This document shows, piece by piece, positions 546-26,780 of a stretch of 64,000 nucleotides of DNA. This stretch comes from Bugula neritina (lineage: Eukaryota; Bryozoa; Gymnolaemata; Cheilostomatida; Bugulidae), in NCBI GenBank assembly GCA_964035545.1, contig OZ037766.1, positions 9,309,722 through 9,373,721 of the forward strand. The letters are read 5' to 3'. Position numbers and translations under genes: made by a program. The notes beneath the pieces are model-generated. The model was not told the origin of the DNA, ran no database searches, and saw only the letters and a program-made list of their open reading frames with translations. Within the stretch, counting starts at the first letter, position 1. Every line of letters begins with the position of its first letter.

Positions 546-3500
546 CTGTAATGTATCAGTTCCAAGGTCAACTAAAATTGGATTTGGTAAGCCACCAAAC
601 GTCAGCCCAAATTTCAACAGAGTGGTTTCAGCTACAGTGCCAGTGATACGGTTGAAATAGTAACAGTCCCTGTAACAAACAATAAACAAAACAGATGTAA
701 CGAGGTGTTTTATTGGCTGACAGCTTACTATGCAAAAGCACTTTCGTACGCTTTACACATTAAGTCTTATAAAGTTAGTATTTGTTAGCTCCTTTTGCAT
801 ATAAATTAACGCACAATAAATAAAAAATCAAAAATTCAAGCCAAATTGTAGTCACTCACCTGGAACCTAATGGACTGACGCAAATTTCAAACACCAAGTC
901 ACAATTATCTGGTCGGCCCTTCACAATTTTACCGGTGTCGCAAAGAATGCCGGTAGATTTGAAATCGGAAGGGTTGGAATAGTTCAAAAAGTTGATAGCA
1001 AATACGGTGTACCCTGTACCATATTGACAGAGGGGGGGAGGCGAGGTTACAATAGGGGCAGCTGTTGATGCCGTGGTAGGTAATGGGGTTGTGGTTGCGG
1101 GTAGAGTAGATGGTTGTTGTGGTGGCTGTGTGAATGGAGTAGGACATGATGCCTCCAGACGCAGAGTCAGTCTAAAACATTATAATCTTGCCATTTGATG
1201 AAAACTGAATAGTGTGGCTTTAATTAAAAATTTAAAATAAATAAAACAGGTAAAAAACAATTATTGCCAGTATAAAAACTATTCTGTAATTACATAATAC
1301 AGTTGCCGATTGCCTTTTTCTCAGGGAACAATGAAAATTTAACACAACAAAATTATGACATTGAGCTAGACTGACATTTTTTATATTGATTTCTTTCAAC
1401 ATATTATTATAAATTACTGAAAAAAGCATTTCATATTTCAAATCCTCCAGAAATGATTGAGATTGTTGCAGCTGTAACACAACCAGCCACAACCTATAAG
1501 GGGTACATACAAAGATGTCCTGCAGGATACTCGAGTTCCACTAATGGGTACAACTTTGGCAGGCGTTCCTTGAGGCACATCAAAGTCATATTCAAATGTA
1601 TCAATTAGTTCATAAGGGAAGAAAACATCGTCATCTTTATCATATATTGACACTCTTATTGAGACTCCCTACAAATGAAAATTTCTATTTCACTGCTTGA
1701 GTCAACATATAAAATCTAATAAAAACACTGACATGATGTAAATAAACTTAGGAAGCATATTTTAAAACTTAATAACACTTGACAATAAAAATATCTCACA
1801 AAGTCAAGATTAACTAGCACAAGTTAAATTCTCTTTTCCTAGTCTAGCTGCCAAGCTTCAGTAATGCTATGCTATGAATTTGTCAGAATAAAAAAGATAT
1901 TCCGGCCAACCTTAAATTTAGCAGCTCCCAAGGCAAATATTAGTGGATTGTTGATATTGGTATCTATGAACTGGCCAAAGTCTACTCGTATATTTCTGAC
2001 TACTACATCAGTTAGCTGCTTGTATAAGGCGCAATCCCTGTAAACATGCAAAGTATTAGTAAATCACAACAAACCTGATGATAATGTGGTCTATCGATAT
2101 TTAACTATAAAAAAACTTGTGTGTTTGTAAACAATGCACAATCACCATGCAGCGTATTATATAGATTATTTACATGTTTTAATAGTATATACATTATAGC
2201 ATGAAACAAACAAAAAACTTCTATTTCTATTTAAAGTATAACACTAGTGTCTCATTACTCTTACATTAAAAGTCTTCCATAAATTTAAAAAATACTCAGA
2301 AATACCCATAATTTATCAGCAGACTATGCCTGTGCTTCAACTTTTTACAGTTAACTACACGCATGTCGGCAGCAGACAGCATAGCTGACACACTCACTTG
2401 GAGCCCAGGTCACTAATGCAGATGTCGAGAACAATGTCACAGTAGTCATTACCACCTCCTACACTGGCATCACACCGCCCGCAGTCATATTTGGCATCGG
2501 CCAAGTTCTCCAGCGACACAAACTGAATAGAATACTCTGAATAGCCTGAGGATACCGCACAGAGTACAGGGGAGGGTGTGGTGACCGCATCAGTCATGGG
2601 AACTGCACAACTGGTATCCACTTCTAGCTGCAACCTAGAATATACAAACGAAACTTACTTGAGTCGTAAGTGAGAATCAGTCAAGGGTTTGAAACTGTGA
2701 AATGACACACTATGTGGTAGTCTAAACCAAAGTTGCATAGGTTTATGTTTGAAATACTAGTGCTAGGGTACAGTAATGCATTTAATCAAGAGATGTATCA
2801 CTTTATTACACAACACAGAACAGAGAAGCTAAAAGTTCCACTCTGGTATTCAAAGAAATCAGCATTCAGTAGACATCATACCTTGTACTGGGGGAGTTCT
2901 TACGCTCCCCTCTAATCGTAACAGTTTTCCTCTCACCATCTAATGGTTTAGTTAAGTCAAAATCTAAGATATCAACTCTCCGATAGGGCGTCAGCATACT
3001 CCCAACTTGTTCGTGCCAGACTTCAAAGTGTAGATTAGCACCCTGTTCAAGTACTTATAGAAATTAATTTCCTCTGACAAACTCACTCTAATATACTTTT
3101 CCACCACTAGTCAGGCCACTACCTGTTTGGATTAACACTTTAATTAATTCTCTAATAGTTATTCCTGGTATTTCATGCATTGCATAACATTCAACTTAAA
3201 TAACATTAGGAAGGCATGATAATTGTATAATTTAAAAACATCTGTTTTTGTTGGCCAATAAGTCTTAGCATTAGCATCCAGATAATAATTGTATTAACTG
3301 GACTACAAGCAAATTCGGTGTCAATGCATTCAGTTGATGCAATTAAAAGCTGTTTACATATAAACAAAAATGTGTCATTTTGGACTTCACAGTGTTATCA
3401 CTTGCAGCCAGAGTCTATTTTATATAAACTGCAGCCACCTATATACATGCTTACATTATATACAGCGGACTTAAGGCAAGCATACATCTTTACTCTATAT

Positions 3501-26780: not shown

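Follow-up and report, generated by a model that had tools for sequence, protein, structure and literature searches.

The window analysed here is a 64,000-nucleotide stretch of the genome of Bugula neritina (contig OZ037766.1, labelled C2 below, positions 9,309,722–9,373,721). Positions are numbered from its first letter, and negative coordinates denote bases to the left of position 1 on the same contig. The minus strand carries an array gene in which MNNL domains, the C2-like head domains of Notch ligands such as Delta and Jagged, are repeated in tandem between Thr- and Pro-rich spacers, with a predicted membrane anchor at the C-terminus. A paralog was found elsewhere on the contig. Modules are named M1 to M17 in the main gene and P1 to P10 in the paralog, and A, B and C designate the three exons of each module.

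Structure of the array gene

The gene model comes from a gene-finding script, with manual corrections to module 1, several exon ends and the last exons. From an ATG at 26780, it runs through 46 exons and 3,115 codons of the window in a single frame, starting with a signal peptide, and reproduces both counts of a first-pass annotation of the same DNA. That annotation also described twelve three-exon MNNL copies, and twelve A exons indeed lie on the minus strand of the window, each with its B and C exons (the twelfth C exon falls outside). Twelve is the correct number for the window only: followed outward, the gene extends about 20 kb past the left end, to about -19975, with its last module, M17, reached at -18668, and the full model comprises 68 exons, 4,759 residues and 17 MNNL (C2) modules. 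Each of the 66 internal exons has AG/GT borders, and no stop precedes the last codon. An independent gene for a secreted protein, terminating within the window, was rejected, as the stop, the membrane span and an AATAAA signal lie about 20 kb further on. Visual inspection also removed a CTACATTACA-type repeat that had been called as an exon (-10548..-11609), together with all exons beyond number 65 of the initial run.

Each repeat unit spans three exons in the order A, B and C, the A part of some units forming the end of a mucin exon (Table 1). The A exon carries the motif C..C..C[IV][CS], the B exon [RKS]-x-C and the C exon GVxIxVWDxD...DEF, the motifs being degenerate in several modules. Exon phases are identical in 17/17 modules (A ends in phase 2, B passes from 2 to 0 and C from 0 to 2); the B and C exons of module 1, missed by the profiles, were placed by hand using splice sites and the expected phase. 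The last strand and Cys of each module (xLxLxVxCPxP) open the next exon, which is a DSL exon (phases 2 to 1) in modules 1, 2 and 6. All 17 A exons matched the profile on the minus strand with E-values of 6e-12 to 3e-25, and the six that were outside the training set (M9, M13–M17) still matched at 1e-18 to 6e-12. On the plus strand of the window, used as a control, the best matches only reached 0.32 (A), 1.9 (B) and 2.9 (C). The architecture of the gene, as read from its sequence, is well supported.

Downstream of module 17, a ShKT-like domain is followed by ARSKRDV, a 111-base exon carrying AGLFVLVGVMVSMMFGILITAMVV and the last exon, which ends SYTTA-stop with AATAAA about 45 bases beyond. The product contains 24.0% Thr, 8.3% Pro and 7.5% Ser, and 14 Thr/Ser/Pro-rich segments total 1,301 residues at the threshold set in this analysis. 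Mean hydropathy exceeds 1.6 only in the final helix (2.54), which is followed by a predicted cytoplasmic tail of about 33 residues. Because this C-terminal transmembrane helix is the sole strong hydrophobic segment, the product is predicted to be membrane-anchored and not simply secreted. The secretion proposed in the earlier description of a mucin-like protein is therefore not supported, although RSKR sites ahead of the helix could release the ectodomain. Membrane-tethered mucins combine Thr/Pro-rich regions, a juxtamembrane processing site, a transmembrane helix and a short tail. The array gene shares these four features and adds folded C2 modules along the ectodomain. Pfam reported no SEA domain in the scanned pieces of the two genes. 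The DSL domains, the transmembrane helix and the ShKT-like domains within the spacers had not been noticed in the first-pass annotation.

Homology of the modules

Relatedness of the modules to Notch ligands was assessed on 24 of the 27 modules of both genes (P4, P8 and P9 were left aside). Thirteen of the 24 match Pfam MNNL (PF07657) at E<=0.1. In scans of spliced pieces, M5, M16 and P6 exceed the cut-off of 22.5 bits (30.1, 23.3 and 28.7 bits), and M4, M8 and P5 fall below it (22.3, 21.2 and 15.5 bits). Five other Pfam families match one module each, none of them C2 or Ig. Modules that do not reach Pfam MNNL were assigned by profile, or by position for the B and C exons of M1. A 16-module profile searched against PDB sequences found two Delta-like chains and nothing else at E<=10. 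The 24-module profile, run against all PDB sequences, found eight: two Delta-like chains (3.4e-6 and 5.2e-6) and two of Jagged-1 (1.1e-4 and 3.3e-4), so that every match at E<=0.001 is a Notch ligand, then designed Ig-like proteins (0.024, 0.053 and 1.4) and a tRNA synthetase (0.98). The modules thus score better against Notch ligands than against unrelated beta-sandwich domains, the comparison that the first-pass annotation had set as a test of its assignment, and their homology to the MNNL/C2 domains is supported by these sequence comparisons.

A second gene and an ordinary-looking Delta

Two modules were searched against the genome assembly (216 Mb in 295 contigs, of which C2 and C3 each exceed 32 Mb). 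With every candidate scored, all matches at E<=0.1 (36 and 41) fell at two loci only, the main gene and a second locus on the plus strand of C2 (4223.5–4246.6 kb), about 5 Mb away. This paralog has ten modules, DSL domains after the first and fourth (P1 and P4) and ShKT-like domains. Towards its C-terminus come a ShKT-like domain, a single EGF (24.4 bits against a cut-off of 21.5), RVKR and a transmembrane helix, and the tail reads RKKSIN; one stretch inside P4 also reaches a hydropathy of 1.71. The order MNNL-DSL-ShKT-mucin-ShKT-mucin-MNNL is common to both genes. Five of 13 ShKT-like domains match Pfam ShKT (PF01549) at E<=1 (best 3.9e-4), and their C-terminal Cys pattern is conserved. The paralog model is a raw one: P7–P9 are incomplete, a (CA)n exon (26302–26856 in local coordinates) is an artefact, and the three final exons come from a visual reading of the sequence.

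In a tree of the modules, two of 24 inner branches are well supported, joining M16 with M17 and M9 with P2. The main-gene and paralog modules are intermixed, with 9 label changes, a value as low in 440 of 500 shuffles. This no more than suggests that much of the module diversity predates the gene duplication.

The paralog bears on whether the main model is one gene. The model could join separate genes (two, if module 1 and its DSL belong to one and modules 2–17 to another, or more) or hold misassembled copies. It was computed from sequence and completed by hand in module 1, the linker exons at 23511–24159 contain no recognised domain, and the paralog opens with its own signal-like segment ahead of what is probably the counterpart of module 2, the 8 kb before it having yielded no A exon (M2 and P1 pair in the tree with support of only 81/79). 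However, phases agree across the linker with no stop, no second signal peptide was seen by eye before module 2, and no other segment reaches a mean hydropathy of 1.6. Misassembly is further opposed by the second locus, which has the same architecture. We therefore regard fusion or misassembly as unlikely.

A second alternative is that the protein is effectively a secreted component of mucus or matrix, furin cutting at RSKR and freeing the ectodomain. RSKR-D ends 40 residues ahead of the transmembrane helix, RVKR-D holds the same juxtamembrane place in the paralog, and apart from these the two models contain a single R-x-[KR]-R site, the duplicated RSKR after module 16. A membrane stub with a cytoplasmic tail nevertheless suggests anchoring at some stage, cut ectodomains can remain attached non-covalently, and the cleavage itself is a prediction. 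Effective secretion is unlikely on balance.

The genome also encodes an ordinary-looking Delta on C3, with an MNNL domain at 742990–743292 and a DSL domain at 740880–741014; visual reading added EGF repeats and a membrane span. Positions 1–105 of the 157 of the MNNL model fall in one exon of this gene, and the array modules split the matching part over two exons.

DSL domains of the array genes

On spliced pieces, Pfam DSL (PF01414, cut-off 24.2 bits) recognises M2 (25.3 bits) and P1 (27.6 bits), with M6 (21.9 bits) and M1 (19.8 bits) below the cut-off; P4 was not included. A six-frame search of the genome gave four DSL matches, all over the cut-off: Delta on C3 (67.4 bits), P1 (31.7), M2 (28.8) and M6 (25.7). 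The DSLs of M1 and P4 were not among them. Module 2 has its best PDB matches, through its DSL, in Delta (7alk), Jagged-2 and Jagged-1. The proposal that the C2-like domain had been freed from its receptor-binding context is incomplete in that modules 1, 2 and 6 retain a DSL.

These DSLs differ from those of known ligands. The third and fourth Cys are separated by 7 (M1) or 8 residues in the five DSLs of both genes and by 11 in the Delta of C3; Delta 7alk and Jagged-2 are likewise 3 residues longer than M2 in this loop. In the alignment, the fifth Cys is lost in M6 and P4, and YYG is replaced by FYG in M1 and YFG in P4. The Notch-binding Phe of Jagged-1, F207, presumably lies in the shortened loop. 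Replacement of F207 by Ala abolishes Notch binding (PMC3888931), and F204A lowers it in Drosophila (PMC8490980); published work is cited here and below from extracts of each article.

Could the array genes nonetheless encode many-headed Notch ligands or antagonists, the DSL modules binding Notch and the other C2 domains adding membrane avidity? The MNNL-DSL order in modules 1, 2, 6, P1 and P4 and the type I topology are those of Delta. The receptor is bound by MNNL, DSL and the first EGF repeats (PMC4810162), and among sponge ligands AmqDelta4 has no EGF repeats and those of Amphimedon lack conserved DSL binding sites (PMC3482393). The array products nevertheless depart from canonical Notch ligands. 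No EGF repeats follow MNNL-DSL (Pfam found none over the cut-off in the scanned pieces after the DSLs of M1, M2 and M6), and the single EGF of the paralog adjoins the membrane. The loop expected to carry the Phe is 3–4 residues shorter in 5/5 array DSLs, two of which also lack a Cys, and an ordinary-looking Delta is present on C3. A Notch-ligand role for the array gene is less likely, and we consider it distinctly improbable.

Residues at the calcium site

In Jagged-1 the calcium ligands are the Asp72 and Asp140 side chains (PMC3888931). In Delta-like4 two of the key aspartates are replaced by Arg-55 and His-123, and Delta-like4 and Delta-like1 are described without bound calcium (PMC5538765). 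In our profile alignment, C-D-L of the modules corresponds to C-D-T of Jagged-1 and W-D to W-D (Asp72/Asp140 numbering counted along the chain), and the Delta-like chains read C-R and W-H in the same columns. Both Asp are present in 22/27 modules, as in a Jagged-type calcium-binding C2 domain, and a third Asp (W-D-x-D) occurs in 21. The Delta of C3 has Arg at the first position. At the calcium site, most array modules are, by their residues, of the Jagged type. Jagged-1, Dll-1 and the fly ligands bind liposomes (PMC3888931, PMC8490980).

Growth of the array

M16 and M17 differ at 24/761 exon bases and 27/1,272 intron bases (dN 0.023 and dS 0.063, resting on 13 and 10 changes). Together with their ShKT-like domains and RSKR sites, they look like a recent duplication on sequence grounds. 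The exon after RSKR reads NAYSTPST in both copies, continuing with Thr codons in the internal copy and, through -AGLF, into the membrane helix in the terminal one. The copies part at the Thr codons, where the transmembrane and internal exons diverge. The array probably grew here by unequal exchange at Thr (ACN) codons, an event that would have left an RSKR site inside the ectodomain. The M16/M17 junction seems to capture one step of array growth.

Proposed function

We estimate at about one in two the probability that the array gene encodes a type I membrane mucin, possibly furin-processed, that binds membranes or glycolipids multivalently and in a calcium-dependent way and does not act as a classical Notch ligand. 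The Thr-rich spacers would be O-glycosylated and extended, holding the modules away from the cell. The modules would first take up calcium and then attach to the headgroups of phospholipids or glycolipids, and many weak sites together could produce strong adhesion to cells, vesicles or microbes, for attachment or capture. Convertases might nick or release the ectodomain at RSKR. The lipid- or glycan-binding role proposed in the first-pass annotation is a reasonable one.

Several observations weigh against this interpretation. Eleven of 24 modules miss E 0.1 for MNNL; no MNNL match was obtained for M2, M6, M9 and M12 in a first Pfam scan or for M1 and P1 in a second, and M9 and M12 matched no Pfam family of any kind in the first. 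Both calcium-site Asp are missing from M3, M10 and P8 and the first from M1 and M5 (M5 has Glu). Their joint loss (p 0.0034) is equalled by 6 of 213 column pairs, this pair included, which makes co-loss weak support for a calcium site in these sequences. Delta-type C2 domains without the two aspartates bind liposomes too (PMC3888931, PMC8490980), and a calcium-dependent shift reported for Dll-1 (PMC3888931) conflicts with the absence of bound calcium (PMC5538765); calcium or lipid binding is therefore not implied by these residues alone. The exons of M16/M17 differ more than the introns, giving no clear sign of purifying selection despite dN<dS. Finally, the Delta of C3 reads DDELGHY at the DSL Phe position, for which we take DDFFGHY as the comparison sequence. 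It may lack the Phe as well, and loss of the Phe in the array DSLs is therefore no proof of lost Notch binding.

In known ligands, as described in the extracts cited, the lipid-binding C2 domain adjoins the Notch-binding DSL and its own role is hard to separate. Fourteen C2 domains without a DSL beside them (17 minus 3) would offer a natural test of Notch-independent membrane recognition or adhesion. More tentatively, the array genes may represent a new class of animal cell-surface glycoprotein, with up to 17 calcium-dependent membrane-binding Notch-ligand C2 arms on mucin spacers, processed by convertases and enlarged by unequal exchange in Thr-codon repeats. In that case the C2 half of a Notch ligand would be able to recognise membranes on its own, as a module whose function does not involve Notch.

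Comparison with known proteins

The array gene shares with Delta and Jagged/Serrate the MNNL/C2 family, the MNNL-then-DSL order (three modules here), a signal peptide and a single transmembrane helix. Where those ligands have a single MNNL domain it has 17, and it lacks an EGF array. Its spacers are mucin and ShKT-like, its DSL loops are shortened, it carries RSKR sites, and its tail measures about 33 residues. Ligands of the DSL family are described with one N-terminal MNNL/C2 domain (PMC4810162, PMC5538765), Platynereis has an ordinary Delta and Jagged (PMC5356439), and one choanoflagellate combines MNNL and DSL in a single protein (PMC6040629). Cnidarian genes carry 1–11 DSL repeats, one of them with one MNLL and 3 DSL, and their authors allowed for misassembly (PMC2770060). 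Bivalves have tandem DSL repeats without EGF, in a study that discarded matches of unexpected architecture (PMC8166818). According to these extracts, such genes resemble ours in that a head domain of Notch ligands has multiplied in particular lineages in the absence of EGF repeats, but they multiply DSL, whereas the array gene multiplies MNNL/C2 and adds mucin spacers and a membrane anchor. We found no tandem MNNL protein in the open-access literature, represented mostly by titles and abstracts, and unpublished annotations may exist. The 17-fold repetition of a head that ligands normally carry once suggests that it has been reused as a many-armed surface sticker instead of a Notch signal.

Table 1. 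Features of the array gene within the window (window coordinates)
Feature	Position	Strand	Evidence
Exon 1: signal peptide, 19 residues, phase 0 donor	26724..26780	-	Model and hydropathy
Module 1, degenerate MNNL/C2: exons 26485–26624, 25914–26022, 24944–25080	24944..26624	-	A exon E 2.8e-13 (used for training); B and C located solely from splice sites and phase
DSL exon of module 1 (final Cys encoded by the following exon)	24545..24666	-	E 0.017 (two-sequence profile); Pfam DSL 19.8 bits (cut-off 24.2)
End of DSL 1 and non-mucin linker: exons 23898–24159, 23511–23644	23511..24159	-	Model; least certain part
Module 2, MNNL/C2: exons 22580–22754, 22241–22358, 21657–21799	21657..22754	-	Profile and model
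DSL exon of module 2	21284..21408	-	Pfam DSL 25.3 bits (cut-off 24.2); PDB Delta, Jagged-2, Jagged-1; genome search 28.8 bits
Large exon: end of DSL 2, two ShKT-like domains (20405–20533, 19739–19858), Thr/Pro-rich spacers, A part of module 3	19476..20634	-	Profile and model
Module 3, B and C exons: 18905–19028, 18292–18431	18292..19028	-	Profile and model
Module 4: exons 17563–17764, 16569–16692, 16281–16456	16281..17764	-	Profile and model; Pfam MNNL 22.3 bits (cut-off 22.5)
Module 5: exons 15427–15570, 14828–14951, 13512–13672	13512..15570	-	Profile and model; Pfam MNNL 30.1 bits, above cut-off
Module 6 and preceding mucin: exons 12797–13192, 12441–12543, 11990–12144	11990..13192	-	Profile and model
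DSL exon of module 6, without fifth Cys	11297..11421	-	Pfam DSL 21.9 bits on module, below cut-off; 25.7 bits in genome search; alignment
Module 7: exons 10335–10472, 9343–9469, 9018–9175	9018..10472	-	Profile and model
Mucin spacer and module 8: exons 8274–8888, 7824–7947, 7528–7682	7528..8888	-	Profile and model
Mucin exon with ShKT-like domain (6340–6477)	6231..6823	-	Profile and model
Module 9: exons 5955–6129, 5656–5779, 5181–5338	5181..6129	-	Profile (A exon outside training set) and model
Module 10: exons 4122–4250, 3524–3647, 2882–3042	2882..4250	-	Profile and model
Module 11: exons 2398–2634, 1911–2037, 1511–1668	1511..2634	-	Profile and model
Module 12: exons 860–1171, 546–669; C exon outside the window at -507..-664	546..1171	-	Profile and model

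Neighbouring and genome-wide observations

Introns of the array gene hold long (AT)n arrays (window 14376–14567 and 17357–17474). Just upstream of the gene, at 29290–30615 on the minus strand, lies a Gln-rich open frame of 441 residues with no Pfam match at E<=0.001. A plus-strand open frame at 46273–46569 matches Pfam SPMIP4-like, a sperm-associated microtubule inner protein, with 35.3 bits. To the left of the gene, from about -28600 to -33700, the gene finder returned as a by-product a long open reading frame resembling an LTR retroelement.

The best COX1 match in the assembly lies on contig C295 (15,248 bases) and, by eye, reads best with the invertebrate mitochondrial code (in 300 codons, 9 AGA as Ser and 18 ATA as Met). 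This code and the ordinary-looking Delta make a bilaterian invertebrate the most likely host; a sponge origin, first considered from the mix of domains, was rejected. Further matches were found on C6 (with a nearly identical score, perhaps as a nuclear copy), C17 (free of internal stops), C65, C196 (split) and C4 (with stops). Some of the assembled DNA may come from other organisms.

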